Shown in pieces: positions 7,008-23,618 of a stretch of 64,000 bases of DNA. Position 1 is the stretch's first letter. Each line of letters begins with the position of its first letter. The position numbers were made by a program, and so were the translations under genes. The stretch is taken from the NCBI RefSeq assembly GCF_900115955.1, contig NZ_FOYL01000003.1, forward strand, positions 715,117 through 779,116, in the 5' to 3' direction. The notes below the pieces were generated by a model that saw nothing but the letters and a program-made list of their open reading frames with translations, searched no databases and was not told the DNA's origin. The stretch comes from Lentzea waywayandensis (GTDB lineage Bacteria; Actinomycetota; Actinomycetes; Mycobacteriales; Pseudonocardiaceae).

Positions 7008-7025
7008 GGTTACTGGCGAGTACCG
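7008..7025. promoter_or_regulatory. TTACy-N4-rGTA palindrome before aldehyde dehydrogenase
   Basis: The sequence GGTTACTggcgAGTACCg lies 10 bases upstream of the aldehyde dehydrogenase ATG. It matches the perfect palindrome at 22038-22055 (upstream of ccr) at 12 of 14 arm positions, with the same 4-base spacer. Similar sites precede the 3-hydroxybutyryl-CoA dehydrogenase and thiolase/epimerase genes. The position next to the start suggests repression. The binding protein is unknown. Confidence 0.5.
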
Positions 7026-7035
7026 GAGGAGTCCT

Positions 7036-8541
7036 ATGACGCAGACCGCTTCGAACAGCGCGCTGTCGGCCGATGGCGAGCAGCGGCGGTTCGCATCACT
7101 GGACCCGCGCACGGGCGAGGTCGTCGCGCATCACCCGATCCACACGGCCGCCGAGGTCGAGGACGCGGTGTCCTCGGCGCGCGAGGCCGCCGCGTGGTGG
7201 GCGGGCCTCGGGTTCGAGGGGCGCAAGACCAAGCTCGACGCGTGGCGCAAGATCCTCTCGCAGCGCTCGGACGAGTTCATCTCGTTGATCAGCTCGGAGA
7301 CGGGCAAACCCGCCGACGACTCCCGCGTCGAGGTCGCGCTGGTGATGGACCACCTGCACTGGGCCTCGCGGCACGCGGGCCGTGTGCTGGGCAAGCGCCG
7401 GGTGTCCTCGGGGATGCTGATGTTCAACCACGGCGCGACGCTGGAGTACCGGCCGTTGGGCGTCGTCGGCGTCATCGGGCCGTGGAACTACCCCGCGCAC
7501 ACGCCGATGGGTTCGATCTCCTACGCGCTGTCCGCGGGCAACGCCGTCGTGTTCAAGCCGTCGGAGTTCACGCCGGGCGTCGGCACGTTCCTCGCGTCGA
7601 CGTTCACCGAGGCGGTGCCGGAGTTCCCGGTCTTCCAGGTCGTCACGGGCTTCGGTGAGACGGGCGCGGCGCTGGTCGGCGCGGGCGTCGACAAGATCGC
7701 GTTCACCGGGTCCACGCGGACCGGCAAGAAGGTCATGGCCGCGGCCGCCTCGTCGCTGACGCCGGTGCTGGTCGAGTGCGGTGGCAAGGACGCGCTGATC
7801 GTCGACTCGGACGCCGACCTGACCGCCGCCGCCGAGGCCGCGATCTGGGGTGCGGTGTCCAACGCCGGCCAGACGTGCGCGGGCGTGGAGCGGATCTACG
7901 TGGCCGAGGACGTCGCCGACGAGTTCACCGAGATCGTCGTGAAGCGCGCGAAGAAGCTCAAGCCGGGTGGCGAGCCGAACGCGAACCTCGGGCCGATCAC
8001 GATGCCGTCGCAGGTGGAGATCATCCGCGAGCACGTGCAGGACGCGCTGGACCGCGGTGGCAAGGCACTCGTGGGCGGGCCGGACTCGATCAGGCCGCCG
8101 TACGTCGAGCCGGTGGTGCTGGTGGACGTGCCGGAGGACTCGCTGGCGGTCACCGAGGAGACCTTCGGGCCGACCGTGGTGATCAACCGGGTGCCGAACG
8201 CGCTGGAGGGCGTGCGGCTCGCGAACCAGTCGAAGTACGGGCTGGGTGCCGCCGTGTTCTCGAAGTCGCGTGGCGAGGAACTGGCGTCCGAACTGCGGGT
8301 CGGGATGGTGTCGATCAACTCGGTGCTGACCTACGCGGCGATTCCCGGGCTGCCGTTCGGCGGTGTCGGCGACTCCGGGTTCGGGCGCATCCACGGCGAC
8401 GACGGCCTGCGCGAGTTCACCTACGCCAAGGCCGTGACGAAGCTGAAGTTCTCGTCGCTGATCAACATGGCGACGTTCGACAGGTCCTCCATGGCGGGCA
8501 AGCAGATGCTGCGCCTCGCGCGGATGCTCTTCGGGCGCTGA
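7036..8541 (+). CDS. NAD(P)-dependent aldehyde dehydrogenase
   Basis: A 501-residue aldehyde dehydrogenase, the normal family length. It oxidises an aldehyde to the acid. Visible motifs are PLGVVGVIGPWNYP (residues 140-153, cofactor-binding), the general base glutamate in LVECGGKD (E247) and the catalytic cysteine in NAGQTCAGVERI (C281), then EETFGPTV and PFGGVGDSGFGR. The C-terminal tail after residue 465 (FDRSSMAGKQ) is somewhat extended. Aldehyde substrates of this branch are varied. The ATG at 7036 has a GGAGGA site. A candidate operator shared with acyl-CoA genes lies just upstream, and a strong hairpin ends the gene. Confidence 0.92.
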   Translation: MTQTASNSALSADGEQRRFASLDPRTGEVVAHHPIHTAAEVEDAVSSAREAAAWWAGLGFEGRKTKLDAWRKILSQRSDEFISLISSETGKPADDSRVEVALVMDHLHWASRHAGRVLGKRRVSSGMLMFNHGATLEYRPLGVVGVIGPWNYPAHTPMGSISYALSAGNAVVFKPSEFTPGVGTFLASTFTEAVPEFPVFQVVTGFGETGAALVGAGVDKIAFTGSTRTGKKVMAAAASSLTPVLVECGGKDALIVDSDADLTAAAEAAIWGAVSNAGQTCAGVERIYVAEDVADEFTEIVVKRAKKLKPGGEPNANLGPITMPSQVEIIREHVQDALDRGGKALVGGPDSIRPPYVEPVVLVDVPEDSLAVTEETFGPTVVINRVPNALEGVRLANQSKYGLGAAVFSKSRGEELASELRVGMVSINSVLTYAAIPGLPFGGVGDSGFGRIHGDDGLREFTYAKAVTKLKFSSLINMATFDRSSMAGKQMLRLARMLFGR

Positions 8542-8553
8542 AGAGCATCCGCG
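8519..8553. terminator. Bidirectional hairpin terminator
   Basis: A perfect 14-bp stem (8519-8532 with 8540-8553, left arm CGCGGATGCTCTTC) closes a 7-base loop. It overlaps the stop codon of the aldehyde dehydrogenase and lies 10 bases beyond the stop of the convergent iron-binding lipoprotein, so it can end transcription from both sides. Confidence 0.75.
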
Positions 8554-8563
8554 GCGGAGGTTC

Positions 8564-9556
8564 TCAGACGCCGAGCTGCGTCTTCATGTCGTCCAGGACC
8601 ACGTTCGCGGCGAGCACGCCGAGGCCGAGGAAGTAGGTCTCGTCGAGGACCGGCTTGGCCTTGCCGGCCTTCACGGCGTTCAGGCCGGTCCACAACGGAC
8701 CGCCGAGCACCGAGGCCTGCGCGGTCTTGGCCGGGTCGCCGTAGGTCGAGTAGAGGATGAAGTCGCCGTCGGCCTTGCTGATCTGCTCCGCGCTGACCTC
8801 GGCGGCCAGGTCGTCCACCTGGGACGAGGTCGGCTGGCCGATCTTGGCGTCGATCAGGATCGTGCCGATGAACGACTTCTTGGCGTACAGGCGGATGCGG
8901 CCAGGCATGAAGCGCAGCGCCGTGACCGTCGGGCGCACGCCGAGCTTCTTCTCGATGGCGTCGCCGGTCTCGGTGGCCTTCTTCGTGTAGTCCTCGAGCA
9001 TCTTCGCCGCGTCGGCCTGGCGGTCGAGTGCGGCCGCGTTGAGCAGGAAGTTCTCCTTCCACACGTAGCCGGGGCGCACGCTGAACACCGTCGGGGCGAT
9101 CGCGGCGAGCTTCGGGTAGAGGGCCTCCGCGCGCAGCTGCGAGCCCAGGATCAGGTCCGGGTTCAGCTTGGTGATCGCCTCGAGGTTGAGGTTGTTGGTC
9201 GTGCCGACGTTCTCCGGCGTGCCGCCCTTGTCGCCGATGTAGGACGGCATGGTCGGCGAGCCGTCGGTGTAGGCGATGCCGACGGGCTTGATGCCGAGCG
9301 CCACGACGTTGTCGAGCTCACCCGTGTCGAGCACGATCACCCGTTCGGGCTTCTTCTCGAGCTTGGTCTCACCCATCGCGTGCTTGATGGTGCGGGGGAA
9401 CTCGCCGGGCTTCTGCGTCGTGCCGAAACCGTTGCTCAGCTCGTACGCCTTGCCGAAGTCCTCGCCACCTTGGGCGACGGTCGGCTTGTCCGGCGTGCTG
9501 GAGCAGGCGGTCAGGGTCAGGGCGACTGCTACGAGCAGCGCTGCTCTCTTCGACAC
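8564..9556 (-). CDS. Iron-siderophore ABC transporter substrate-binding lipoprotein
   Basis: A 330-residue periplasmic-binding-type lipoprotein (signal ending TLTAC, lipid cysteine about residue 18). The domain layout is that of class III binding proteins for ferric siderophores and hemes: PERVIVLDTGELDNVVALGIKPVGI at the start of the first lobe, LEAITKLNPDLILGS, and a long helix joining the lobes. It should capture an Fe(III)-siderophore outside the membrane. No permease or ATPase gene is adjacent, so it must work with a transporter encoded elsewhere. The region upstream of its start contains an iron-box-like palindrome. Confidence 0.9.
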   Translation of the reverse strand: MSKRAALLVAVALTLTACSSTPDKPTVAQGGEDFGKAYELSNGFGTTQKPGEFPRTIKHAMGETKLEKKPERVIVLDTGELDNVVALGIKPVGIAYTDGSPTMPSYIGDKGGTPENVGTTNNLNLEAITKLNPDLILGSQLRAEALYPKLAAIAPTVFSVRPGYVWKENFLLNAAALDRQADAAKMLEDYTKKATETGDAIEKKLGVRPTVTALRFMPGRIRLYAKKSFIGTILIDAKIGQPTSSQVDDLAAEVSAEQISKADGDFILYSTYGDPAKTAQASVLGGPLWTGLNAVKAGKAKPVLDETYFLGLGVLAANVVLDDMKTQLGV

Positions 9557-9600
9557 GACGTTGTTCCTCCACTACGGAACGTGATGTTGACCTGCATTTC

Positions 9601-9614
9601 TTAGGGCGACCTAA
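9601..9614. promoter_or_regulatory. Candidate iron box (DmdR/IdeR-like)
   Basis: TTAGGgcgaCCTAA is a 14-bp inverted repeat 45 bases upstream of the siderophore-binding gene start. It resembles the half-sites of DtxR-family iron boxes (TTAGGTTAG-type arms), though shorter than the full 19-bp consensus. Iron-dependent repression of the gene at 8564-9556 is the likely role. Confidence 0.5.
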
Positions 9615-9700
9615 CGGTAGCGGGGTCCTTTGCCCGTTCCGAGTGTCAGACCCCCGGAGTAAGAAGGAACACGGTCACCGACGATCGGGAGGGCTGTTCG

Positions 9701-10693
<993 letters not shown>

Positions 10694-10694
10694 G

Positions 10695-11321
10695 GTGGGC
10701 TGCACGGCAGCGGACGTCGTGACGGCTCTGCGAGCCGCCGCGGCTGTCGTCCAGGAGCACCGCGACGAGCTGGTGCGCCTGGACCAGGCGATCGGCGACG
10801 CCGACCACGGCGAGAACATGAAGCGCGGCTTCACCGCGCTGCTGTCCCGTTTGGACGCCGAACCGCCGGACACCCCCGGCAAGGTCCTGAAACTGGTGGC
10901 CACCACGCTGATCTCCACGGTGGGCGGAGCCGCGGGCCCGTTGTACGGCACCGCTTTCCTGCGCGCGTCGGCCGCGGTGGGCGACGCGGCCGAGCTCGAC
11001 TGCGACCTGGTCGCCCGAGCGTTGCAGGGCGCGCTGGAGGGCGTGGTCGCGCGCGGCAAGGCCGTGGTGGGCGACAAGACGATGGTCGACGCCCTGACTC
11101 CAGCCGTGACAGCAGCGGCAAGCGCGCAAGGCTCAGTGGCCGCCGCCCTCTCCGCGGCGGCCGACGCGGCCGACGAAGGCGCCTCCTCGACGGTGCCGAT
11201 GGTGGCGCGCAAGGGCCGAGCCTCCTACCTCGGTGAGCGCAGCGCGGGCCACCTGGATCCGGGCGCCAGGTCGACGGCGTTGCTGCTGCGCGCCTTCGCG
11301 GACGCGGCGGCCAAGGCATGA
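10695..11321 (+). CDS. dhaL: Dihydroxyacetone kinase ADP-binding subunit DhaL
   Basis: A 208-residue DhaL, the subunit that carries ADP/ATP and transfers phosphate to DhaK-bound dihydroxyacetone. The nucleotide/Mg2+ motif LDQAIGDADHGENMKRGF (residues 29-46) contains the conserved aspartates, and GGAAGPLYGTAF and DKTMVDALTPA are standard. The GTG start lies one base after the dhaK stop. The gene ends in an ATGA overlap with dhaM, so the operon is translationally coupled. Confidence 0.95.
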   Translation: MGCTAADVVTALRAAAAVVQEHRDELVRLDQAIGDADHGENMKRGFTALLSRLDAEPPDTPGKVLKLVATTLISTVGGAAGPLYGTAFLRASAAVGDAAELDCDLVARALQGALEGVVARGKAVVGDKTMVDALTPAVTAAASAQGSVAAALSAAADAADEGASSTVPMVARKGRASYLGERSAGHLDPGARSTALLLRAFADAAAKA

Positions 11322-12025
11322 CGGCGGCCGCGGACACCAGCCGCGTGGGCCTGGTGGTCGTCTCGCACAGCGAGATGCTGGCCAACGGCGTAGCGGAACT
11401 GGCCGCTCAAATGGCCCCCGACGTCTCCGTGCTCCCGGTGGGCGGCACGGATGAGGGCGGCCTGGGCACCGACTACGCCTCGGTGGTCGAAGCCCTGGCA
11501 GACGCCGACTCCGGCGCGGGCGTCGTCGTGCTCTACGACCTGGGCAGCGCCAAGATGACGGCCGAGATGGCCGTGGAGTCGGCAGACGACCCGTCCCGCT
11601 ACGTGGTGGTGGACGCACCACTGGTGGAAGGCGCGGTGGCCGCGGCCGTCGCCGCCCAGGGAGCCGCTTCGCTGGCCGACGTGGCGGCCGCGGCAGAGGG
11701 CGCGTCCGGCGAGGCCCCGGTGGCCGCCCCCAGCCGCCCAGCCCTGCACCTGGTGCCGGACGCGGTGTCGGCGGAAGTGCTGCTGACCAACGAGGTAGGC
11801 CTGCACGCGCGCCCGGCGGCCTTGCTGGCCCGCACCGTCGCCGAACTCGACGCCGACGTGGTCGTCCGCTACGGCAACGAGGAGGCGAACGCGGCGAGCG
11901 TGCTGGCGCTGATGGGCCTGAGCGCGCCCGGCGGCAAGTCGATCACCGTGGTGGCCACGGGCAAGGACGCGGGGGAGGCGGTGCGCCGCATCGAGGAGCT
12001 GGCGGAGAGGGGGTTCGACGACTAG
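11318..12025 (+). CDS. dhaM: DhaM phosphotransferase (EIIA-Man + HPr fusion)
   Basis: A 235-residue DhaM. Residues 1-125 form an EIIA-mannose-type domain with the phospho-histidine H17 in VVVSHSEM. A flexible Ala/Pro linker follows. Residues 150-235 form an HPr domain with the phospho-histidine H163 in VGLHARPAA. It receives phosphate from PEP through enzyme I and rephosphorylates ADP bound to DhaL. No EI domain is fused, unlike in enteric DhaM, so a separate PTS enzyme I must supply phosphate. Starts in an ATGA overlap with dhaL. Confidence 0.93.
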   Translation: MTAAADTSRVGLVVVSHSEMLANGVAELAAQMAPDVSVLPVGGTDEGGLGTDYASVVEALADADSGAGVVVLYDLGSAKMTAEMAVESADDPSRYVVVDAPLVEGAVAAAVAAQGAASLADVAAAAEGASGEAPVAAPSRPALHLVPDAVSAEVLLTNEVGLHARPAALLARTVAELDADVVVRYGNEEANAASVLALMGLSAPGGKSITVVATGKDAGEAVRRIEELAERGFDD

Positions 12026-12053
12026 CGGCCGTCGCAGGTGCGGGCCCGCGCTG

Positions 12054-12290
12054 TGAGGTGCGGGCGGGCTGGCCGAGGCGGGCTGCGCGGTGTGGGCGGG
12101 CTGGCCGAGGCGGGGCTGTGAGGTGCGGGCGGGCTGGCCAAGGTGGGCTGTGCGGGTCGTGCGGCTGTTCGTGGGTGGGCTGGTCGAGGCGGGCTGTGCG
12201 GTGTGGGTGGCTGACCGAGGGTGGGGTCGCGGTGTGAGCGGCTGTTAGTGGGTGGGGCTGTGCCGTGTGAGCGGCTAGCTGGGGGTGGTG
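12054..12290 (+). repeat. Degenerate G-rich repeats after dhaM
   Basis: Imperfect copies of a G-rich unit containing GGGCGGGCTGGCCGAGG recur at about 12062, 12094, 12127, 12173 and 12205, with a spacing of 32-33 bases (46 once), fading out near 12290. The + strand is strongly G-rich, with many GGG runs, so the transcript could fold into quadruplexes. The repeats begin just after the dhaM stop. No protein-like reading frame is evident; a termination or RNA-stability role is possible. Confidence 0.6.
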
Positions 12291-12770
12291 CCGCGCGGTG
12301 TCCGATGGCGTCGCGTGGGGGCGGTCGCGTGGCGAAACCATGCCCGTCCTGAAGGCGCTGCCCCGAACCAGCCTGCTCGTCCGCCGCTGCCGGCTTCGGC
12401 CTCAACGCTGTCCTCGGCGCGGCAGCCGCCCCGACTGCGCTGAGTCCGACGCGACCCGCACGCCCCTGGAGGGTCCACCGAGTTCGATGGCACTCGCGCG
12501 TCCCGCAGTGCTTGCTAGCCGTGCTGGCTCCGTCCGGCCCGCGTCCGCATGGCGGTCCCCAGCCCCGCCAGCTCCGATGCGGCCCGCGAGCCACAAGGCC
12601 GTGCCCGACCAAGCCGTTCCCCGACTCGGATGGCGCAACTCCGCGTTCACCCACCTGGGTTCATCAGGCAAAAGGCCGGGTCTAGGCGTTTGCTGGACCG
12701 ATAACTGTTTCGATCCTGATGGCGAAGCTCACGGCTCCCGCCAGCGCTGGGAGTGGCATAGTCGCCCGCA
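12291..12770. other. Intergenic stretch without a recognisable gene
   Basis: About 480 bases between the dhaM-distal repeats and the 3-hydroxyacyl-CoA dehydrogenase promoter. Open frames exist on both strands but lack family resemblance, plausible start signals and consistent codon bias. No RNA gene is recognisable. I see only the promoter-proximal operator at its right end. Confidence 0.5.
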
Positions 12771-12788
12771 AGTTACTCCTTGGTAGCC
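12771..12788. promoter_or_regulatory. TTACy-N4-rGTA palindrome before 3-hydroxyacyl-CoA dehydrogenase
   Basis: AGTTACTccttGGTAGCC lies 29 bases upstream of the GTG start at 12818. It matches the perfect palindrome before ccr at 11 of 14 arm positions, with the same 4-base spacer. Confidence 0.5.
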
Positions 12789-12817
12789 CACGCTTTACCC
12801 CGCATGGGAGGTCTGCA

Positions 12818-14593
12818 GTGGCGCGCGAAATCAACACCGTCGGAGTCGTCGGCTTCGGAACCATGGGCGCGGGCATCGTGGAGGTACTCGCGCGCACCGG
12901 GCTCTCGGTCAAGGTGGTGGAAGTCGACGCGGCCGGTGTCGAGCGCGGGCTCGGGCACCTGGAGCACTCGACGAAGCGGGCCGTGAAGCGGGAGAAGCTG
13001 ACCGCTGACGAGAACGCGGCGCTGCACGGCCGGGTCACCACGAGCCTCGACCTGAGCAGTCTCCAGGACTGCGACCTCGTCATCGAGGCGGTGCCGGAGA
13101 GCGTCGAGCTCAAGGCGCGGATCTTCCGCGAACTGGACGAGATCCTCAAGCCCGAGGCGATCATCGCGTCCAACACGTCGTCGCTCTCGATCACCGAGAT
13201 CAGCGTGGTGACGAAGCGGCCGGGCAAGGTCGTGGGGCTGCACTTCTTCAACCCGACGCAGGTCCTCAAACTGGTCGAGGTCGTGCGCACGGTCGTCACG
13301 GAGCCGGACGTGATCACCGACGTGGTCGCGTTCACCGAGCGGCTGGGCAAGTCGCCGGTCGTGATCGGGGACAGGGCGGGCTTCATCGCGAACGCGCTCC
13401 TCTTCCCGTATCTCAACCACGCGGTCAAGATGCTGGAGTCCAGGTACGCGACGCGTGAGGACCTCGACGCGGCCATGCGGTACGGCTGCGGTTATCCGAT
13501 GGGACCGTTGGCGCTGCTGGACCTCATCGGTCTCGACACGGCGTACGAGATCCTCGACACGATGTACCACCAGTCGCGCAACCGGCTGCACTCGCCGGCG
13601 CCGCTGCTCAAGCAGATGATCACGGCGGGTCTCCTCGGCAGGAAGACCGGGCGCGGTTTCTACACCTACGACGGTCCCGACTCGCCTGTCGTCGTCAAGG
13701 ACGTGCAGACGCCGTCCGAAGTGGACAGCGCTGTGCAGGCTCGGGAAGTTCAACGGGTCGGCGTCATCGGCACGGGCACGATGGCGACGGGCATCGCCGA
13801 GGTGTTCGCCAAGCGCGGGTACGACGTCGTGCTGCGGGCCCGCGGTCTGGACAAGGCCGAGAAGGCGATCGGCGCGGTTCGCAAGTCGCTCGAGCGTGCG
13901 GTCAGCAAGGGCAAGCTGTCGGAACAGGACCGCGACGCGACGCTCGCCCGCATCTCGCCCGCCGTGGAGTTCGTGGAACTGGCGGACTGCGACCTGGTCG
14001 TCGAGGCGGTGGCCGAGGAGATCGGGATCAAGAAGGAGGTCTTCGCGGCGCTCGACGAGGTGTGCAAGCCCGGTGCGGTGCTCGCGACGACCACGTCCTC
14101 GCTGCCGGTCATCGAGGTCGCGGCCGCCACGAGCAGGCCCGCGGACGTCGTCGGCCTGCACTTCTTCAACCCCGCGCAGGTCATGAAGCTGGTCGAGATC
14201 GTGGAGACGATCTCCACGGGCGCCGACGTGGTCGCGACGGCCCGCAAGATCTGCCTCGACCTCGGCAAGCACCCGGTGCACTGCGGTGACGTGGCCGGTT
14301 TCATCGTGAACGCGCTGCTCTTCCCGTACCTCAACGACGCGGTGAAGATGCTGGAGGCCCACTACGCCGAGGCCGACGACATCGACAACGCCATGAAGGT
14401 CGGCTGTGGCCTGCCGATGGGACCGTTCGCGCTGCTCGACGTCGTGGGGCTGGACGTGTCGCTGGCGATCCAGCGCACGCTCTACAACGAGTTCCGCGAG
14501 CCGGGGTTCGCGCCGGCGCCGTTGCTGGAACACCTGGTCACGGCCGGTCGCCTCGGCCGCAAGACGGGCAAGGGATTCCGCGACTACTCGTGA
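12818..14593 (+). CDS. Tandem-fused 3-hydroxybutyryl-CoA dehydrogenase
   Basis: A 591-residue protein made of two complete 3-hydroxyacyl-CoA dehydrogenase modules. Each has an NAD(P) Rossmann motif (VGVVGFGTMGAGI near residue 7; VGVIGTGTMATGI near residue 310), the catalytic histidine motif GLHFFNP, an SSL serine element (NTSSL or TTSSL) and a C-terminal helical dimerisation domain (CGYPMGPLALLDLIGLD; CGLPMGPFALLDVVGLD). Single-module enzymes are about 285 residues, so this is an internal duplication or fusion. It should reduce acetoacetyl-CoA to 3-hydroxybutyryl-CoA, a step feeding crotonyl-CoA to Ccr. GTG start with GGGAGG at 12806-12811. A candidate operator lies at 12771. Confidence 0.92.
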   Translation: MAREINTVGVVGFGTMGAGIVEVLARTGLSVKVVEVDAAGVERGLGHLEHSTKRAVKREKLTADENAALHGRVTTSLDLSSLQDCDLVIEAVPESVELKARIFRELDEILKPEAIIASNTSSLSITEISVVTKRPGKVVGLHFFNPTQVLKLVEVVRTVVTEPDVITDVVAFTERLGKSPVVIGDRAGFIANALLFPYLNHAVKMLESRYATREDLDAAMRYGCGYPMGPLALLDLIGLDTAYEILDTMYHQSRNRLHSPAPLLKQMITAGLLGRKTGRGFYTYDGPDSPVVVKDVQTPSEVDSAVQAREVQRVGVIGTGTMATGIAEVFAKRGYDVVLRARGLDKAEKAIGAVRKSLERAVSKGKLSEQDRDATLARISPAVEFVELADCDLVVEAVAEEIGIKKEVFAALDEVCKPGAVLATTTSSLPVIEVAAATSRPADVVGLHFFNPAQVMKLVEIVETISTGADVVATARKICLDLGKHPVHCGDVAGFIVNALLFPYLNDAVKMLEAHYAEADDIDNAMKVGCGLPMGPFALLDVVGLDVSLAIQRTLYNEFREPGFAPAPLLEHLVTAGRLGRKTGKGFRDYS

Positions 14594-16138: not shown

Positions 16139-16159
16139 ATTTCCGGCCGCTGCGTCGTC
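16133..16159 (+). promoter_or_regulatory. Candidate ECF41-type promoter
   Basis: CCTCACA (16133-16139), exactly 16 bases, then CGTC (16156-16159). The ECF41 consensus is TGTCACA-N16-CGTC, so five of seven -35 bases, the spacer and the whole -10 element match. It points at the small membrane gene starting at 16168 and overlaps the 5' end of the divergent sigma factor gene itself. Confidence 0.45.
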
Positions 16160-16167
16160 GGACTGTC

Positions 16168-16739: not shown

Positions 16740-16771
16740 GGACCGATTCTACGAGCGGTTAACGTGTTGTC

Positions 16772-17065: not shown

Positions 17066-17068
17066 TCG

Positions 17069-17235
17069 CTAGTGGCGTGGCCCGGAATGTTGCCGGGCGA
17101 ATTCGCGGTCAGACGGGTGCATCGTCGTACCGCCCCCACGTCCTCGTACTGGTTGTACGTGGGCGTGGGGGCGACACCACGAGGTGCCCTGCTGAGCGTG
17201 AATTACCCAGCCGACGTTCCGGGCCACGCCGCTAG
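17069..17235. repeat. 167-bp concentric palindrome between convergent genes
   Basis: Outer arms of 21 bases (17069-17089 and 17215-17235, both ending in CTAG) match at 19 of 21 positions. Inner arms of 19 bases (17131-17149 and 17155-17173) match at 17 of 19 and close a 5-base loop. Both are centred on base 17152, and the sequence between them also aligns in part. The element fills the gap between two convergent genes exactly. It could be a very strong bidirectional terminator or a folded miniature element. Confidence 0.75.
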
Positions 17236-17924
17236 ATCTCGACCTGCTCGCGCCACCGCTCCAGTCGTGCCCGGAACTCCTCCGGCTGCTCGACGGGCGG
17301 CAGGTGTCCCGCGTCCTCGATGCGTTCGCTGGTGGAGTGCCTGAGCGTCACGGCGAGCTTCGCGGCCACGTCGGGCGGCGTGAGCTTGTCGTGTTCGCCC
17401 ACGAGCACGAGCGACGGGACGTCCAGCGACTCCAGCACGTCCGTGGAGTCCGGCCGCTTCGCCATCGCGCGCTGCCACCACGCCACGTCCTCGGCCCGCT
17501 GCTCCAGGATCATGGTGCGCACAGAGGCCCGTGCTGTGTCCGAGGCGTTGGGGCCGAGCAGGTTCGGCAGCATCGCGTCCGCGAGCCAGTCGCCGACGCC
17601 CTCGCGTTCCACGCGGTCGGCCATCGCGTGCCGGTTCGCGGCCGCTTCCGGCGCGTCCGCGGTGTGCTTGGTGTCGACGAAGATCAGGCCCCGCACGCGT
17701 TCCGGTGCGCGCCTGAGCAACGCCATCGTGATGTAGCCGCCCATCGAGCAGCCGCCGAGCACGACGCTGTCCAGCTTCCGTTCGTCGAGCACGCCGAGCA
17801 CCTGCTCCGCGACGGTGTCGAGGTCGGGCTCGCCGTGGCCGCGCAACGACGGCGTCAGCGCGCCCGGCACGTCCCACATCCGCGCGTCGAGCGGAAAGGC
17901 GTGCAGCAGCACCAGATCGTCCAT
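17232..17924 (-). CDS. Alpha/beta-fold hydrolase
   Basis: A 230-residue alpha/beta hydrolase. VLLHAFPLDARMWD carries the oxyanion region, the nucleophile serine is in GGCSMGGYI (about residue 60), the acid in VGEHDKLTP and the histidine in DAGHLPPVEQP, giving a complete triad. Such small enzymes hydrolyse esters or C-C bonds; the substrate is not evident. The ATG overlaps the upstream acetyltransferase stop by four bases (ATGA), so both proteins are likely made from one transcript starting near 18480. Its stop lies inside the terminal repeat of the 167-bp palindrome. Confidence 0.9.
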   Translation of the reverse strand: MDDLVLLHAFPLDARMWDVPGALTPSLRGHGEPDLDTVAEQVLGVLDERKLDSVVLGGCSMGGYITMALLRRAPERVRGLIFVDTKHTADAPEAAANRHAMADRVEREGVGDWLADAMLPNLLGPNASDTARASVRTMILEQRAEDVAWWQRAMAKRPDSTDVLESLDVPSLVLVGEHDKLTPPDVAAKLAVTLRHSTSERIEDAGHLPPVEQPEEFRARLERWREQVEI

Positions 17925-18469
17925 CAGCTCTCCCACTCCGGCGCCAGCACCGACCACACCTCGAGGTCCTGACGAACCCCGTGGTGCAGGAAGTACGAGC
18001 GCAGCACGCCGTCCCTGCTCATGCCGAGCCGCCGCGCGACCGCGATGCTGGGCGCGTTCTCCGACGACACCAGCCACTCAACCCGATGCACGCCGCGCTC
18101 GCAGATCGCCCAGTCGATCAGGATCCTCGACGCCCGCGTGATCAGCCCCTTGCCCGTCGCGGCCGGCTCCAGCCAGCAGCCGACCTCGGCGCGCCCCTGC
18201 GGGATGTCCATCACGCGGAACAGCACGCCGCCGACCAGCTTGTCGTCCAGCCAGATCCCGAAGATCCGCCCGGTGTCGGCCGCCGCCTTGTCCGCGTAGT
18301 CCTGCAGGAGGTCCCGCGCGCTCTCCAGGTCCTTGGCCTTGTCCGCGAACCCGATGTGCTGCCCGATGAACTCCCGGCCGCGCTCCATGTGCGCGAAGAA
18401 CTCCTCGGCCTGCCACGGGTCCAACGGCCTGAGCTCGGCGCCGTCGACGCCCAGCGATTTCACGAACAT
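17924..18469 (-). CDS. GNAT acetyltransferase, RimJ/RimL type
   Basis: A 181-residue GNAT-fold acetyltransferase of the RimJ/RimL group: LRPLDPWQAEEFFAHMER at the N-terminus, AEVGCWLEPAATGKGLITRASRILIDW with the acetyl-CoA loop (about residues 103-122), and SENAPSIAVARRLGMSRDGVLRSYF near the end. Members acetylate ribosomal protein N-termini or small amines. First gene of a two-gene unit with the hydrolase. Divergent from the phosphatase gene, with only 24 bases between starts, which implies overlapping, probably leaderless promoters. Confidence 0.9.
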   Translation of the reverse strand: MFVKSLGVDGAELRPLDPWQAEEFFAHMERGREFIGQHIGFADKAKDLESARDLLQDYADKAAADTGRIFGIWLDDKLVGGVLFRVMDIPQGRAEVGCWLEPAATGKGLITRASRILIDWAICERGVHRVEWLVSSENAPSIAVARRLGMSRDGVLRSYFLHHGVRQDLEVWSVLAPEWES

Positions 18470-18493
18470 CCTGTTCCCCCAAGATGGTGTGTT

Positions 18494-19021
18494 GTGTCCA
18501 CGCGAATCGTATTGGTACGCCATGCGCAATCCGTCCTGCCGCGCCTCGGCGAGCCCGACGACGACCAACGGCCGCTGGCCCCTGCCGGGCTGGCCGCCGC
18601 GGAGGCGCTGGTCGAGCGACTCGCCGCGTACGCACCCGCCGCAGTGCTGTCGAGCCCGCTGTTGCGCGCCGTGCAGACCGTCAGGCCGGCCGCGGACGCG
18701 CTGGGGCTCGCGGTGACGACCTGGCCGTCGTTGCGGGAGTGGGAGTCGGGGTTGTTGCCGAGCGCGGACTGGGAGACGCGGTACGCCTACAGCTGGGCTC
18801 ATCCCGGCTTCGCCCACGGGGAGGGGGAGAGCCTCGACGCGCTGACCGTGCGGGCGGGGAAAGCGTTGGCGCGCATGGGTGAGGAGTATCCGGACGCGAC
18901 TGTGCTCGTCGGGTCGCACGGGACGTTCCTGACGCGCGCGCTGATCGCGGCGGGGCAGCGCGCGGACTGGGAGTTCTGCCGCGCGATGCCGATGCCGGCG
19001 ATCTACGAAGTCATGGGCTGA
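18494..19021 (+). CDS. Histidine phosphatase family protein (phosphoglycerate-mutase fold)
   Basis: A 175-residue histidine phosphatase. The RHG-type motif is VLVRHAQSV (phospho-histidine near residue 9; the glycine is replaced by alanine, which is tolerated in the family), with LLRAVQT (Arg), WESGLLPS and GSHGTFL carrying the second histidine. It should be a phosphatase with an unknown small substrate. GTG start at 18494. Followed by a strong hairpin at 19068 and tandem repeats. Confidence 0.88.
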   Translation: MSTRIVLVRHAQSVLPRLGEPDDDQRPLAPAGLAAAEALVERLAAYAPAAVLSSPLLRAVQTVRPAADALGLAVTTWPSLREWESGLLPSADWETRYAYSWAHPGFAHGEGESLDALTVRAGKALARMGEEYPDATVLVGSHGTFLTRALIAAGQRADWEFCRAMPMPAIYEVMG

Positions 19022-19067
19022 CCTGCGCGGACGCGAAATTGTCGGTGCCGGCTGGGATAATTGAAAT

Positions 19068-19096
19068 CAGGGGTCCCCCTGGGCGGGGGACCCCTG
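19068..19096 (+). terminator. Hairpin terminator after phosphatase gene
   Basis: A perfect 12-bp stem (CAGGGGTCCCCC at 19068-19079 with its complement at 19085-19096) and a 5-base loop, 47 bases after the stop at 19021. A typical actinobacterial terminator without a U-tract. Confidence 0.75.
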
Positions 19097-19097
19097 C

Positions 19098-19250
19098 GTG
19101 AGCTTGCGGTGCGCGCTCGCGAGGTGGGCTCGCGGTGCGGGCTCGCGAGGTGAGCTTGCGGTGCGCGCTTGCGAGGTGAGCTTGCGGCGCGGGCTTGCGG
19201 TGCACGCTTGCGAGGTGAGCTTGCGGCGCGGGCTCGCGAGGTGGGATTGC
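19098..19250 (+). repeat. 26-bp imperfect tandem repeats
   Basis: Five and a half units of 26 bases begin at 19098, 19124, 19150, 19176 and 19215. The first unit starts GTGAGCTTGCGGTGC; the fourth unit carries an internal 13-base expansion, and the last copy is truncated. The units alternate between AGCTTGCG and GGCTCGCG variants. They lie directly between a terminator and the stop of the convergent DivIVA-like gene. There are no spacers, so it is not a CRISPR array. Confidence 0.75.
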
Positions 19251-19254
19251 TGCG

Positions 19255-20643
19255 TCAGGACTTCTTGGCCGTCTGCGGGCGCGCGAGCTTGGCCGTGGGG
19301 CCGTCGACCTGAGGTGACTGAGCCTGCGACGCCTGAGCTGGGGCCTGGGATGCCTGAGCTTGCGATGCTTGGCCCTGGGATGCCTGGCCCTGAGGAGACT
19401 GGCCCTGCGATCCCTGCGCCGGCTTGTTCTGCGCCGAGGGCGCGGCCTGCGGAGCCGGTGCCTGGGCGGGCTTGTTCGGCGCGGCAGGAGCGGCTTGAGC
19501 CCCCTGGGCCTGGGCGGGAGCCTGCGGCGCGGCGGGCCTCGCCGGACCGGGCTGCGGAGCCTGGGCGGGCTGGGCCGGCACCGGAGCGCCGCCCTGTCCC
19601 TGAGCCGGAGCTTGGGCCGGAGCCTGGGCGGGAGCCGCGGGCTTCTCCTCGTCCACCGGGTCGAGCAGCGGCACGACCTCCTGGAGCGCCGTCCGCACGT
19701 TGTGGAGCTGGTGCGAGAGGCGGTTGCGGAGGTTGCGGAGCTGGTCGACGCGCTGCGTGGCGGCGGTGGTGCGGCGGTTGGCTTCCTCGGTGGCCTCGCG
19801 GACGCGGCGGTTCGACTCGTCGGTCGCTTCCTGGATGCGCGCGGTGGCCTCGGTGATCGAGTCGTGGCGGCGGCGGTTCGCCTCTTCGGTGGCCTCGCGG
19901 ACTCGGCGTTCGGCGTCGGCCTTCGAGGTGGTCTGCTCGGTCGCGATCGCGGCGCGGACTCGGGCGGCCTCCTCGGCGGCTTCGCGCAGGCGCCGGTCTG
20001 CCTCGCCCTTGGAGTTTGCCTCCTGGGAGGCCAACGTTGCCATCGCCTCGGAGCGGCGGGCGGCCATCGCGATCTCGAAGTCCTCTTCGACGGTCACGCG
20101 GCGCTGCTCGGACTCGTCGGCGATCTTGCGGGCGGCGGACTCCGCCTCGGAGACGATCTTCTCCGCCTCGTTGCGCGCGGTCTCGAGAACGCTCTTGTGC
20201 TCGGACTCCATGGCGGCACGGCGCTCGTCGAGTTCGGCGATGAGCTTCTCGTAGCGCTGGCGCAGCACACCCGCGTCGGCCTCGGCCTTGGCGCGGATGT
20301 GCCCGCCCTCCGCTTCGGCACGGGCCTTGATCTCGTTGGCCTCGTCCTGGGCCAGCCGCAGCATGCGCTGGAGGCGCTCGGAGAGCCCCTCCAGCGTCGT
20401 CGGCGGCAGCGACAGGCGCTCCACCTGGTTGCGCATCTCGGTGATCTCCGAGCGTGCGGCTTCCAGCTGGCGCGCCAGATCTGACGTCTGGGAGACGGCG
20501 GCATCGCGGTCCGCGGCGAGCAGCCGCAGATCCGAGTCGAGGCGTTCGAGATGATCCTCGACCTGAGCGCGGTCGTAACCGCGCTTGACGATGTCGAAGC
20601 CGGATCCCAGTGGGACGAGGTCACGGTCGTCGGCGAGGCCCAT
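19255..20643 (-). CDS. DivIVA/Wag31-like coiled-coil protein with Ala/Gln/Pro-rich tail
   Basis: About 462 residues. The N-terminus (VPLGSGFDIVKRGYDRAQVEDHLERLDSDL) is a DivIVA-type dimerisation motif. Residues 40-330 form one long coiled coil rich in Glu/Arg/Ala, with repeats of the form REATEEANRR. The last 130 residues are low-complexity AQAPAQ/SQGQ sequence. Proteins of this design form polar or septal scaffolds in actinomycetes (Wag31, Scy, FilP); this may be such a cytoskeletal scaffold or a DivIVA-domain accessory. ATG at 20643 is chosen; a GTG three codons upstream is possible. The palindrome TACCCGttCGGGTA lies just upstream. Confidence 0.82.
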   Translation of the reverse strand: MGLADDRDLVPLGSGFDIVKRGYDRAQVEDHLERLDSDLRLLAADRDAAVSQTSDLARQLEAARSEITEMRNQVERLSLPPTTLEGLSERLQRMLRLAQDEANEIKARAEAEGGHIRAKAEADAGVLRQRYEKLIAELDERRAAMESEHKSVLETARNEAEKIVSEAESAARKIADESEQRRVTVEEDFEIAMAARRSEAMATLASQEANSKGEADRRLREAAEEAARVRAAIATEQTTSKADAERRVREATEEANRRRHDSITEATARIQEATDESNRRVREATEEANRRTTAATQRVDQLRNLRNRLSHQLHNVRTALQEVVPLLDPVDEEKPAAPAQAPAQAPAQGQGGAPVPAQPAQAPQPGPARPAAPQAPAQAQGAQAAPAAPNKPAQAPAPQAAPSAQNKPAQGSQGQSPQGQASQGQASQAQASQAPAQASQAQSPQVDGPTAKLARPQTAKKS

Positions 20644-20654
20644 GCCCCTCACGC

Positions 20655-20668
20655 TACCCGTTCGGGTA
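20655..20668. promoter_or_regulatory. Short palindrome before DivIVA-like gene
   Basis: TACCCGttCGGGTA is a perfect 6-bp inverted repeat with a 2-base centre, 12 bases upstream of the DivIVA-like start and 12 bases after the ccr stop. It may be an operator; it is too short for a strong terminator. Confidence 0.35.
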
Positions 20669-20679
20669 ACCCCAGAAGG

Positions 20680-21993
20680 TCACACACCCCGGAATCGATT
20701 GATAGCCGTGAGGTGTTGTGCGCGTAGTTCGTGATCCAGCACACCAAGACCTTCTTCGGGCGCAAGGCAGAGCACGCCGACCTTGCCCTGGTGTGCGTTG
20801 CGGTGCACGTCGTGTGCTGCCTGGCCCGTTTCGTCCATTGAGTACACCTTGGACACTGTCGGGTGGATCTTTCCCTTGGCGACCAACCGGTTCGCCTCCC
20901 AGGCCTCGCGGTAGTTCGCGAAGTGCGAGGAGATGATGCTCTTGAGGTTCATCCAGAGGTACCGGTTGTCGTACTGGTGCATGTAGCCGGACGTCGACGC
21001 GCACGTGACGATCTTGCCGCCCTTGCGCGCCACGAACACCGACGCGCCGAACGTCTCCCGGCCGGGGTGCTCGAACACGATGTCCGGGTCCTCGCCACCG
21101 GTGAGCTCGCGGATGCGCGCGCCGAACCGCTTCCACTCGCGCGGGTCCTGCTCGTGCTCGTTCTTCCAGAACTTGTAGCCCTCCGCCGAGCGATCGATGA
21201 TCAGTTCGGCACCCATGGAACGAACGATCTCCGCCTTCTCCGGCGAGGAGACGACGCAAATCGGCGTGGCGCCACCGTTCAACGCGAACTGCGTGGCGTA
21301 CGAACCCAGACCGCCGGACGCACCCCAGATCAGGACCGTGTCGCCCTGCTTCATGTTGCCGCCGTTGGTCGACACCAGCTGGCGGTACGCGGTGGAGTTC
21401 ACCAGGCCCGGCGACGCGGCCTCTTCCCACGTGAGGTGCTTGGGCATCGGCATCAGCTGGTTCGACTTCACCAGCGCCAGGTCGGCGAGTCCACCGAAGT
21501 TCGTCTCGAAGCCCCAGATCCGCTGCTGCGGGTCGAGCATCGTGTCGTTGTGCCCGTCCGGCGCTTCCAGCGGCACGTCCAGACAGTGCGCCACGACGCG
21601 GTCGCCCGGCTTCCACGCGGTGACGCCGGGGCCGACCCGCACGACGACGCCGGCCAGGTCCGATCCCACGACGTGGTACGGCAGGTCGTGGCGGCCGCCC
21701 AGCTTCTTCAGGAAGCCGAACGTGGACACCGGCTCGAAGATCGAGGTCCACACGGTGTTGTAGTTGATCGCGGAGGCCATGACGGCGACCAGCGCCTCGC
21801 CCGGCCCGAGTTCGGGCGTGGCGACCTCGTCGACGTGCAGCGACTTGCGAGGGTCCTTGTCCCTCGTCTCGAGGCCCGAGAACATGTCGGCCTCGTCCGC
21901 GTGCACGGTCACGCCCCGATAGCTCTCCGGAACGTCCAACGAACCGATGGCGTCCAGCTCGTCGGCCAGGATCGCGTCAAGGATCTTCTGCAC
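20680..21993 (-). CDS. ccr: Crotonyl-CoA carboxylase/reductase
   Basis: A 437-residue medium-chain dehydrogenase matching crotonyl-CoA carboxylase/reductase, which reduces crotonyl-CoA with NADPH while fixing CO2 to give (2S)-ethylmalonyl-CoA, the key step of the ethylmalonyl-CoA pathway and a source of extender units for polyketides. Diagnostic stretches are ASAINYNTVWTSIFEPVSTF, NTAYR-type STAYRQL after LVN, the NADPH loop WGASGGLGSYA, and TCASTSGYMHQYDNRYLWM. An 18-bp palindrome precedes it at 22038. In many actinomycetes ccr is next to ethylmalonyl-CoA mutase; here it is alone, but thiolase, epimerase and MeaB lie within 3 kb. Confidence 0.95.
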   Translation of the reverse strand: MQKILDAILADELDAIGSLDVPESYRGVTVHADEADMFSGLETRDKDPRKSLHVDEVATPELGPGEALVAVMASAINYNTVWTSIFEPVSTFGFLKKLGGRHDLPYHVVGSDLAGVVVRVGPGVTAWKPGDRVVAHCLDVPLEAPDGHNDTMLDPQQRIWGFETNFGGLADLALVKSNQLMPMPKHLTWEEAASPGLVNSTAYRQLVSTNGGNMKQGDTVLIWGASGGLGSYATQFALNGGATPICVVSSPEKAEIVRSMGAELIIDRSAEGYKFWKNEHEQDPREWKRFGARIRELTGGEDPDIVFEHPGRETFGASVFVARKGGKIVTCASTSGYMHQYDNRYLWMNLKSIISSHFANYREAWEANRLVAKGKIHPTVSKVYSMDETGQAAHDVHRNAHQGKVGVLCLAPEEGLGVLDHELRAQHLTAINRFRGV

Positions 21994-22037
21994 GGCGGCA
22001 TTCCTTCCCTAGTGAGGGATAGTCGCAGGTTGCCGGA

Positions 22038-22055
22038 GGTTACTCAGCAGTAACC
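22038..22055. promoter_or_regulatory. Perfect 18-bp palindrome upstream of ccr
   Basis: GGTTACTcagcAGTAACC has perfect 7-bp arms and a 4-base spacer, 45 bases upstream of the ccr start. It is the best copy of a motif seen also at 7008, 12771 and 23601, always before genes for aldehyde or short-chain acyl-CoA metabolism. It is probably bound by a TetR-type regulator. Confidence 0.6.
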
Positions 22056-22157
22056 GATTCAGATGCACGCCTGTGAGGGATTCCACTCAGAAGTGTTGAC
22101 CGGGCGGCCAACCAAAGAGGATTATCGAAGGTGTCCGAGAAGGAGGAGGTGGTGGAG

Positions 22158-22517
22158 ATGACCAAGGCGTGGACCAGGTGGCAGGACTGGACCGAGGTGG
22201 CGATCGGTGTTCTGGTGCTGCTGTCTCCGCTCGTCGTGGACACCTCGAACGCGGCCATGTGGACGATGATCGTGCTCGGCGCGCTCATCGCGATCGACGG
22301 ACTCGTCGACCTCGCCATGCCCGCGATGATCTACGGGGAGTACGTGCAGATGGTGCTCGGAGCACTGCTGTTCATCTCTCCGTGGGTGATGAGCTACAGC
22401 GACCTGATGGCGGCCTCGTGGGTCTCCTGGGTCGGTGGCGTGCTCACCATTGCCGCGGGAGCGCTGGCGATGCCCTCCGCGAACGCGGCACACTCGGCTG
22501 CGGCGCAACCGCACTGA
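22158..22517 (+). CDS. SPW repeat membrane protein
   Basis: A 119-residue membrane protein with four hydrophobic segments and two SPW-type repeats (LLSPLVVDTSN about residues 22-32 and FISPWVMSYSD about 75-85), the signature of SPW repeat proteins, whose function is unknown. The ATG at 22158 follows a perfect AGGAGG at 22144-22149 with 8-base spacing; an in-frame GTG at 22131 would give nine more residues but lacks such a site. It is divergent from ccr and is followed by a palindrome and a TetR gene. Confidence 0.85.
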   Translation: MTKAWTRWQDWTEVAIGVLVLLSPLVVDTSNAAMWTMIVLGALIAIDGLVDLAMPAMIYGEYVQMVLGALLFISPWVMSYSDLMAASWVSWVGGVLTIAAGALAMPSANAAHSAAAQPH

Positions 22518-22531
22518 TCAGTCAGGAAACC

Positions 22532-22561
22532 TGTGGGCCCAGGAACGTTCTTGGGCCCACA
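22532..22561. promoter_or_regulatory. 30-bp loopless palindrome before TetR gene
   Basis: Outer arms TGTGGGCCCA (22532-22541) and TGGGCCCACA (22552-22561) flank GAACGTTC; only one base pair of 15 is mismatched. It lies between the SPW stop (22517) and the TetR start (22578). It can act as an autoregulatory operator or as a terminator for the SPW gene; the absence of a loop favours an operator. Confidence 0.55.
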
Positions 22562-22577
22562 CACCCATGGAGGACGC

Positions 22578-23135
22578 GTGGAGGATTCGGCCAAGGAGCG
22601 CATCCTGGCCGCGGCCGAGGAGCTGTTCGCCGACGGAGGCTTCGACGCCACCCCGACCTCGCGGATCGCCGAACGCGCCGGCGTGCCCAAAGGCCTGGTG
22701 CACTACTACTTCAACCGCAAGAAGGATCTGCTCGCCGCGCTCGTCGCGCGGTTGCCGGACAGCACGGTCGACCACCGCCGCGTCGTCGTGGCGGGGGACA
22801 TCGCGGAGTCGCTCAGGCGCCTGGTCGCCGCACTCGACGCACGCCTGAACGCCTCGCCGCTGCTGTCACACCTGTTGTGGCGTGAAGCGGATACGCATTC
22901 GGCTGTGCGCGACGCGATGCAGGCGCGCTACGAGAACGTCGCGGCGCAGATCAAGCAGGTCATCCTGGCCGCGGGCGGCGCGGCGGTCGCGATCAAGGAC
23001 GTCGAGGCGGCCGCGGCGCTCCTCGCGCTGGCCGTCAGCTACCGGCATTCGGTGGCGAGGCACAGCGACGAGGAGGACCCGATCGACCGCGAACTGAGCT
23101 TCGTGGCTAACGCGCTGGCTCGACCAGCTCGATGA
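22578..23135 (+). CDS. TetR family transcriptional regulator
   Basis: A 185-residue TetR-family regulator. The N-terminal helix-turn-helix is ERILAAAEELFADGGFDATPTSRIAERAGVPKGLVHYYFNRKKDLL; the C-terminal ligand domain is ordinary. GTG at 22578 is chosen because upstream codons run through the palindrome. Located among ccr, epimerase and thiolase genes, so it may respond to an acyl-CoA. It is a candidate for binding either the local 30-bp palindrome or the TTACy-N4-rGTA sites; the sequence alone does not decide. Its 3' end overlaps the convergent epimerase gene by 29 bases. Confidence 0.9.
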   Translation: MEDSAKERILAAAEELFADGGFDATPTSRIAERAGVPKGLVHYYFNRKKDLLAALVARLPDSTVDHRRVVVAGDIAESLRRLVAALDARLNASPLLSHLLWREADTHSAVRDAMQARYENVAAQIKQVILAAGGAAVAIKDVEAAAALLALAVSYRHSVARHSDEEDPIDRELSFVANALARPAR

Positions 23136-23544
23136 GCACGCCGCCGGCGTCCTTGGGGTGCACGAAGTTGACCCGGCTGTTCGACGTGCCGCGTCGCGCC
23201 TCCTCGTAGAGCAGGCGCAGGCCCTTCGCCCGCAGAGCGTCGGCCGCGACGTCCACATCGGACACCCGGTAGGCGAGCTGCTGGAGGCCGGGCCCCGAGC
23301 GGCCGATGAACTTGGCGATCGTCGAGTCCTCGTTCAGCGGCGCCAGCAGCTGGATCGCGGTGCCGTCGTGGTCGCCGGGCGCGTGCAGCATCGCCTCGCG
23401 CACGCCCTGCTCCTCGTTGACCTCTTCGTGCGCCACTTCGAGGCCGAAGTTGTCGCGGTAGAACGCGATGGCCACGTCGAGATCGGGCACCGCGATGCCC
23501 ACATGGTCGATCGCGGTCACGAATCGAGCGAGTTCTGCGTTCAT
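23107..23544 (-). CDS. mce: Methylmalonyl-CoA epimerase
   Basis: A 145-residue vicinal-oxygen-chelate protein matching methylmalonyl-CoA epimerase, which interconverts (2R)- and (2S)-methylmalonyl-CoA (and ethylmalonyl-CoA). The first metal histidine is in AIDHVGIAVPDLD, with further ligands in TAIQLLAPL, LQQLAYRV and the terminal glutamate in GVLIELVEP; NFVHPKDAGG is a typical family segment. The ATG at 23544 gives the usual N-terminus. Divergent from thiolase, sharing a 125-bp intergenic region that holds a TTACy-N4-rGTA site. Convergent with the TetR gene, overlapping by 29 bases. Confidence 0.93.
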   Translation of the reverse strand: MNAELARFVTAIDHVGIAVPDLDVAIAFYRDNFGLEVAHEEVNEEQGVREAMLHAPGDHDGTAIQLLAPLNEDSTIAKFIGRSGPGLQQLAYRVSDVDVAADALRAKGLRLLYEEARRGTSNSRVNFVHPKDAGGVLIELVEPAR

Positions 23545-23600
23545 AGCGGGCAAGGGTATCTACGTGATCGGTGCAGGTGCTCCTGTGCGGGGTCTCACAC

Positions 23601-23618
23601 GATTACCGCCCAGTAGCC
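23601..23618. promoter_or_regulatory. TTACy-N4-rGTA palindrome between epimerase and thiolase
   Basis: GATTACCgcccAGTAGCC matches the ccr palindrome at 11 of 14 arm positions with the same spacer. It sits 57 bases from the epimerase start and 52 from the thiolase start, so one site could control both directions. Confidence 0.5.

Follow-up and report, generated by a model that had tools for sequence, protein, structure and literature searches.

A 64,000-nucleotide stretch of the Lentzea waywayandensis genome (the window, below) carries four copies of an 18-base-pair palindromic site, each a short distance upstream of genes for aldehyde or acyl-CoA metabolism, including ccr of the ethylmalonyl-CoA route. 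Here we describe these operator-type sites, their counterparts elsewhere in this genome and in relatives, and the TetR-family proteins that might recognize them. The sites and the genes that adjoin them are as follows.

7008..7025, + strand: operator-type site GGTTACTGGCGAGTACCG, 10 bp before the aldehyde dehydrogenase (ALDH) start
7036..8541, + strand: aldehyde dehydrogenase (PF00171; the best NCBIfam model, succinic semialdehyde dehydrogenase, scores below its cut-off)
12771..12788, + strand: operator-type site AGTTACTCCTTGGTAGCC, 29 bp before the start, at 12818, of the 3-hydroxyacyl-CoA dehydrogenase (HADH)
12818..14593, + strand: HADH, a double-length 3-hydroxyacyl-CoA (3-hydroxybutyryl-CoA) dehydrogenase with two 3HCDH_N and two 3HCDH stretches (Pfam)
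20680..21993, − strand: ccr, crotonyl-CoA carboxylase/reductase (TIGR01751, 608.8 bits against a cut-off of 378.55)
22038..22055, − strand: operator-type site GGTTACTCAGCAGTAACC, 44 bp before the ccr start
22578..23135, + strand: TetR-family regulator (PF00440)
23107..23544, − strand: methylmalonyl-CoA epimerase (equivalog model TIGR03081, 138.9 bits against a cut-off of 114.95)
23601..23618, + strand: operator-type site GATTACCGCCCAGTAGCC, between the epimerase (start 23544, 56 bp away) and the thiolase (start 23670, 51 bp away)
23670..24860, + strand: acetyl-CoA C-acetyltransferase-type thiolase (Pfam and NCBIfam)

An initial annotation had aligned the four sites without gaps as rrTTACy-N4-rGTA-nC. 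All are present at these positions with the letters it described, and all four share TTAC, GTA and the C at position 17. The same annotation called the ccr copy a perfect palindrome. With its TTACT and AGTAA arms and GG and CC flanks it is near-perfect, its reverse complement differing in the four-base spacer only. Gaps from site edge to start codon measure 10, 29, 44, 51 and 56 bp, within the range of 10 to 62 bases originally given. An open reading frame with an earlier HADH start at 12719 would enclose the 12771 site; because alignments with HADH relatives begin at residue 1 or 2 of the protein read from 12818, we take this site to lie upstream of the gene. A search of the entire window for the core TTACYNNNNRGTA returns five strand hits at four places, which are exactly the four sites, compared with a mean of 0.05 strand hits and a largest count of 1 in 100 dinucleotide shuffles of the window.

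Genome-wide distribution and target genes

In the whole 10.15-Mb Lentzea genome (G000; G and L numbers denote compared genomes and extracted loci), TTACYNNNNRGTA gives 66 strand hits at 56 places, while a reversed control gives 9 strand hits. These 56 places are a lower bound because the strict core passes over variants such as TTACCGACGCGTAG (L186). Using gene starts predicted with a simple codon-model caller, we found that 50 of the 56 places are intergenic and lie no more than 150 bp upstream of a predicted start (median distance 36.5 bp), and that four fall inside a predicted gene. Only 7.6% of random positions in the same DNA satisfy this placement rule (binomial P about 2e-49). The scan that the initial annotation called for thus yields matches that are not randomly spread but are concentrated just upstream of gene starts. 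Two sites occur 23–32 bp apart in each of four regions (L012, L016, L025 and L038), such that the 56 places form 52 site regions.

A lipid or acyl-CoA gene is present in 25 of these 52 regions by our own count, which includes the aldehyde dehydrogenase and a region encoding a hydrolase and the TetR-family protein FasR (see below). Pfam models were run on 40 proteins and NCBIfam models on 10 of these, chosen for proximity to a site or for recognizability; this selection is not the full set of site-led genes and includes the TetR of the window. Six site-led regions begin with an acyl-CoA dehydrogenase gene (L002, L010, L016, L021, L024 and L025), and a site in L015 leads an SCP2 gene followed by another acyl-CoA dehydrogenase; site-led units therefore hold seven of the genome's 36 acyl-CoA dehydrogenase matches, six as first gene and one as second. 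Sites also lead two enoyl-CoA hydratases (ECH; L006 and L027), three thiolases (L015, L038 and the one in the window), etfB (L028), an FeS oxidoreductase (L017), two GDSL lipases (L023 and L024), a DUF4442 protein and an Abhydrolase_3 protein, in addition to the double 3-hydroxyacyl-CoA dehydrogenase, ccr and epimerase of the window.

Several of the targets could belong to the ethylmalonyl-CoA route. Sites precede mutA (L020) and a gene for a B12-dependent mutase (L026), for which ethylmalonyl-CoA mutase is a candidate identity only. A site-led lyase (L002 4662) has malyl-CoA/beta-methylmalyl-CoA lyase as its closest relative in the PDB (E 3e-68). The acyl-CoA dehydrogenase at L002 2556 is a candidate methylsuccinyl-CoA dehydrogenase; its best structure match is FadE3, and 6es9, which we take to be a methylsuccinyl-CoA dehydrogenase, ranks third. 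The ecm, mutase, acyl-CoA dehydrogenase and mcl promoters had been named at the outset for a test of enrichment, and sites do occur before the L026 mutase, mutA, the L002 dehydrogenase and malyl-CoA-lyase-like gene, and the two enoyl-CoA hydratases. These targets support the proposal of one regulon that joins scattered genes of ethylmalonyl-CoA and acyl-CoA metabolism. With about 50 promoters, among them those of general beta-oxidation genes, it is wider than first proposed. Separately, one site (L035) lies between a transporter-like gene, recognized by eye, and a divergent gene (4221-5033) whose predicted protein consists of many DSVRITA-like repeats.

Conservation of the sites in related genomes

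To score sites in other genomes we used a matrix built from the 56 places and a threshold of 12 bits, searching ccr loci within 300 bp upstream of the gene. The shuffles used as controls for conservation, FasR promoters, the crystal oligonucleotide and CRP boxes preserve base composition and not dinucleotides, and the related loci counted for conservation and for CRP boxes are not independent. The nearest ccr relatives are from Lentzea species (93–98% identity). Sites of at least 12 bits precede ccr in 49 of 80 named relatives, compared with 1.5% of shuffles. This total comprises 45 of the 48 relatives outside the Streptomyces/Kitasatospora-like group and four of the 32 within it, where the site is about 200 bp upstream. 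The three of 48 in which we found no ccr operator are two Lentzea loci (L107 and L108) and one from Actinocrispum (L120). In L107 and L108 (Lentzea indica and L. flava), ccr is 86–87% identical, is a second copy in L. indica, and is accompanied neither by the operator nor by the window neighbors that were searched for.

Within 30 genomes of the family, HADH homologs were found in 20 cases and 16 of these carry a site of at least 12 bits, the Lentzea gene itself included. The corresponding count for ALDH is 13 of 29 homologs, again including the gene in the window, and more distant matches may be paralogs. Conservation upstream of orthologs, which the initial annotation had made a test of its proposal, is therefore strong at ccr (45 of 48 outside Streptomyces-like relatives) and HADH and weaker at ALDH. 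Upstream of HADH in L183, L185, L186 and L188, TTACY-N4-RGTAR is replaced by TTACC-N4-CGTAG, which resembles the TACC-N4-CGTAG part of the FasR crystal oligonucleotide described below.

We also examined three distant genomes, in which 16 of 16 (G264), 22 of 31 (G258) and 23 of 25 (G299) listed places were read. Genes were matched as one-directional best hits among the G000 genes in hand. Each of the three genomes has sites before the best hits of the L016 acyl-CoA dehydrogenase, the L017 FeS protein and etfB. Sites precede the best hits of a gene pair from L015, presumably fadA2 and fabG4, in G264 and G299, and in some of the three genomes they precede genes for ECH, thiolases, HADH and, by eye, acyl-CoA synthetases. 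Other sites in these genomes precede unrelated genes.

A phylum-wide scan with TTACTNNNNAGTAA detected an excess of the motif mainly in G000, its order and one Streptomyces-like genus (f4/g5). The motif is also found at 72 and 109 places in G207 and G227, respectively, where it imitates the operator and inflates counts. In all 20 G207 regions that were read (L349-L368), as well as in L087 and L090, the core sits at the center of a dispersed, REP-like palindrome that is near-perfect and spans about 45 bp or more. We therefore reject a giant regulon in G207 and G227, whose high motif counts reflect this repeat. Both genomes, and G226 with its many identical TTACTGGTGAGTAG places, were dropped from the genome comparison, leaving 145 genomes. 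These cases illustrate that a dispersed repeat can generate the same core, and one might ask whether chance or such a repeat accounts for the Lentzea sites as well. In G000, however, spacers and flanks vary from site to site, 50 of 56 places are promoter-proximal, and homologous genes in other families keep their sites. Promoter placement and cross-species conservation together rule out this origin in G000, and we regard its likelihood as negligible.

Candidate regulators of the sites

Apart from the TetR gene in the window, two other TetR genes in G000 have sites in their promoters, L001 4120-4749 and L015 4275-4913. The former (G000:C10:114619-115245) encodes the ortholog of Mycobacterium tuberculosis FasR (Rv3208), with phmmer E values of 2.1e-64 to 6o6p and 8e-62 to 6o6n. 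The stretch AGVSKPVLYQHF is identical in the helix-turn-helix of the L001 protein and in the M. tuberculosis FasR structure. FasR is encoded in 129 of 148 genomes of the class and has a single match at E<=1e-30 in G000. The G000 fasR promoter has a site at L001 4039, which is one of those that helped to build the matrix. Among 90 FasR loci, drawn from 90 of the 129 FasR genomes and including one that lacks upstream DNA, 31 from 15 families have a site of at least 12 bits before the gene; the count is 12 of 30 in one set (8 of the 12 from the Streptomyces-like genus f4/g5) and 19 of 60 in further genomes, compared with 0.7% in shuffles.

The DNA that FasR contacts in its crystal structure points in the same direction. 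The oligonucleotide, as given in PMC7382501, has two partial sites scoring 10.3 and 8.4 bits (shuffle P 0.0028). One of them contains ACTCGCCAGTA, which is identical over 11 consecutive bases to the window site at 7008, and that site shares TACTGGCGAGT with the oligonucleotide. The same paper describes neighboring FasR dimers bound consecutively on one fragment, and reports that DNA binding by M. tuberculosis FasR is disrupted by acyl-CoA of C16 or longer. Over the 145 genomes, a motif excess of at least 2-fold is present in 49 of 103 that have FasR only, 21 of 23 that have both FasR and a homolog of the L015 TetR, two of two with the latter only, and two of 17 with neither (P 0.002 for FasR only versus neither). 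The FasR ortholog is the best candidate for the regulator of the sites. We favor, with moderate confidence, the reading that the palindromes are operators of one global acyl-CoA regulon and are bound by this protein, a prediction derived from sequence comparison.

The initial annotation suggested a different reader, the TetR protein encoded at 22578-23135. Its gene lies about 500 bp from the ccr operator. That site is 84 bp before a small gene (22131-22517). A gap of 15 bp separates the end of this gene from the longest TetR open reading frame, and the site could lead a two-gene unit composed of 22131-22517 and the TetR gene. Of the 45 ccr loci that carry the site, 16 have this TetR nearby. 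Against this, a search confined to the DNA around ccr did not find it in the other 29 site-bearing loci, 21 of which have full 5-kb flanks on both sides. In L113, L117 and L120, where the small gene/TetR pair is displaced and accompanied by a divIVA-like gene, no site precedes the pair (best scores −1.9, 0.4 and 1.2 bits), and the recognition helix of the protein is not of the FasR type. Because the site persists at ccr loci without this TetR nearby, the displaced pair lacks the site and the helix differs, we disfavor it as the regulator; that it binds the sites seems highly improbable. The divIVA-like gene of the window (19255-20652, recognized by eye) itself recurs close to ccr in many loci of the Pseudonocardiaceae, without an obvious explanation.

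A stronger competitor of the FasR ortholog might be the L015 protein, whose nearest structure is 3f1b and next nearest FasR, and which we infer to be FdmR-like. Its gene is flanked by site-led promoters, sitting between the SCP2/acyl-CoA dehydrogenase unit and the fadA2/fabG4 pair, with sites at L015 4193 (its own promoter) and 6907 (the fadA2/fabG4 promoter). Own promoters of FdmR-like TetR genes have a non-repeat site of at least 12 bits in 7 of 29 loci, 23 of 25 genomes with an FdmR-like ortholog show a motif excess of at least 2-fold, and FdmR is cited as a regulator of fadE5 and fatty-acid catabolism in PMC9262360. All sites might thus be controlled mainly by this protein, in the way that FdmR controls mycobacterial fatty-acid catabolism. 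However, FdmR-like matches (E 1e-25) are limited to 33 of the 148 class genomes, four of which match through FasR itself. The own-promoter sites of FdmR-like genes favor CTTAC...GTAAG, while those of FasR favor GTTAC and the window sites begin GTTAC or ATTAC. Moreover, in L087 and L090 it is the dispersed repeat that supplies the own-promoter sites, and the identity of the L015 protein as FdmR is presumed. Because G264 and G258 keep the regulon without an FdmR-like match at E<=1e-25, a role for this TetR as sole regulator is disfavored, and we consider it unlikely to be the main one. It may read the CTTAC...GTAAG variant, for example at fadA2/fabG4. Even less probable, in our view, is that the sites are read by another TetR of the same recognition-helix type. 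G000 holds 185 first-look TetR candidates, at least one more of which has an SKPxLY helix, namely the SKPVLYRHF protein of L001 6568-7173; yet FasR combines an own-promoter site, helix identity and a phylogenetic profile. The gene for the SKPVLYRHF protein is a second TetR-like gene 1.8 kb from FasR. We also noted tandem sites exactly 16 bp apart in three promoters of FdmR-like TetR genes (L070 1419/1435, L071 2146/2162 and L075 2144/2160).

Several observations weigh against assigning the whole regulon to FasR. No 12-bit site precedes FasR in 59 of the 90 loci, including those of the distant regulon-bearing genomes G264, G258 and G299. No motif excess of any size is seen in 36 of the 103 FasR-only genomes, and two genomes with neither TetR nevertheless reach 2-fold (G255, 13 versus 1; G209, 3 versus 1). 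In G000, three of the 185 TetR candidates were compared, and 27 of the 52 site regions have genes with other functions or functions that we did not recognize. A log-ratio matrix from 25 FasR and 8 FdmR-like own-promoter sites (excluding those of G000 and repeats) assigns each of the four sites in the window (8.4, 2.0, 4.7 and 8.5 bits), and 46 of the 56 G000 sites in total, to the FasR class, but this class test is weak, since the classes overlap and leave-one-out assignment is correct for 21 of 25 FasR and 5 of 8 FdmR-like sites. By this matrix the fadA2/fabG4 site is FdmR-like (−2.6), while the FdmR-like gene's own-promoter site at L015 4193 falls on the FasR side (2.7). Furthermore, M. tuberculosis FasR is described in PMC7382501 as an activator of fas-acpS, not as a repressor of catabolism. 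Finally, DNA binding, ligand and sign of regulation in Lentzea are all proposed from sequence data, which also tempers the assignment.

Proposed regulation and relation to known systems

The CRP consensus is TGTGA-N6-TCACA. An alignment of Lentzea/Saccharothrix promoters shows a CRP-like box conserved upstream of the ccr and thiolase operators, and a weak one at HADH. The boxes in the window are as follows.

12718..12733, + strand: weak CRP-like box GATGGCGAAGCTCACG in the HADH promoter, 6 of 10 consensus letters
22072..22087, − strand: CRP-like box AGTGGAATCCCTCACA upstream of the ccr operator, 8 of 10 consensus letters
23584..23599, + strand: CRP-like box TGTGCGGGGTCTCACA directly upstream of the thiolase operator, 9 of 10 letters, aligned in seven Lentzea/Saccharothrix loci

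No such box was seen in the aldehyde dehydrogenase promoter, where the best match has 4 of 10 letters. Among the 49 ccr promoters with an operator, 20 from several families have a box matching this consensus in at least 8 of 10 letters, compared with 0.7 expected, and all 20 boxes are centered 23–25 or 45–48 bases from the operator edge. In G000, 52 sites lie within 150 bp of a start, and boxes of this quality accompany 8 of them, compared with 0.9 expected (the L038 box is counted for both sites). The genome encodes three Crp-type helix-turn-helix proteins at E<1e-14. These boxes suggest that a CRP-type activator may add cAMP control at ccr, the thiolase and some other promoters.

In the mechanism we propose, a dimer of the FasR ortholog would bind the operators, including the one in its own promoter, through which it would regulate itself. 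Binding would repress the target promoters, a direction suggested because the operators are mostly 10–110 bp from the start codon. Long-chain acyl-CoA would release the repressor, and at high cAMP a CRP-type protein would provide additional activation. Least secure in this scheme is the sign of regulation, because the M. tuberculosis protein is reported to activate fas-acpS. A broader scenario is possible but tentative. FasR orthologs in many Actinomycetes might be acyl-CoA-sensing repressors of a wide degradation regulon that includes the ethylmalonyl-CoA route in Pseudonocardiaceae, Nocardioides, Kribbella and Blastococcus; mycobacterial control of FAS I would then be derived, and part of the regulon would have passed to an FdmR-like paralog whose operator has shifted.

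According to a 2017 study of Streptomyces beta-oxidation (PMC5539140), neither the signals nor the genes that regulate the catabolism of storage lipids and fatty acids in these bacteria had been described until then. This gap now has a concrete operator, about 50 promoters and a named candidate regulator. The sites tie extender-unit supply (ccr and ethylmalonyl-CoA) to fatty-acid sensing, which is relevant to polyketide producers, and they raise the question of what role FasR plays in the many Actinomycetes that encode it. In the open-licence literature we found no paper with the operator consensus string. Nor did the top-ranked titles and abstract openings retrieved there on beta-oxidation TetRs, FasR/Rv3208, Rv0238/fadA2/fabG4, FdmR, ccr, Streptomyces fatty-acid degradation and Rhodococcus/GlxR describe this regulon, although papers outside that literature could do so. 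The operators of Rv0158, MftR, MadR and SCO3201, in the excerpts consulted, differ from this one, and the searched passages of a paper on Corynebacterium glutamicum FasR give no operator. As far as these searches show, the new elements are the wide beta-oxidation/ethylmalonyl-CoA membership, the conservation over families, the link between operator and FasR, and the CRP-like partner.

The proposed system can be compared with four others. E. coli fad genes are controlled by FadR, an acyl-CoA-released repressor of the GntR family, together with activation by CRP. The Lentzea arrangement would similarly pair an acyl-CoA-released repressor with a cAMP-type activator at beta-oxidation promoters, but protein and operator are unrelated to FadR and its site. 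RamB of Paracoccus denitrificans, according to PMC10370305, likewise exemplifies transcriptional control tied to the ethylmalonyl-CoA pathway, although by another regulator in another bacterium. For FdmR of Mycobacterium marinum (Dong et al. 2021), a TetR protein, PMC9262360 cites a regulatory role at fatty-acid catabolism genes, fadE5 among them, and Lentzea has a TetR beside fadA2/fabG4-like genes (L015). The likeness is one of cited function, and the Lentzea regulon differs in including ccr, epimerase, mutases and a malyl-CoA-type lyase. The fourth is M. tuberculosis FasR (Rv3208) at fas-acpS, where the TetR protein is homologous, the helix stretch is the same and the crystal oligonucleotide shares 11 bases with the ALDH site. 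There, however, the target is the FAS I operon, which is activated, whereas the Lentzea sites belong to genes of degradation and of the ethylmalonyl-CoA route and lie near the start codon, where repression is expected.

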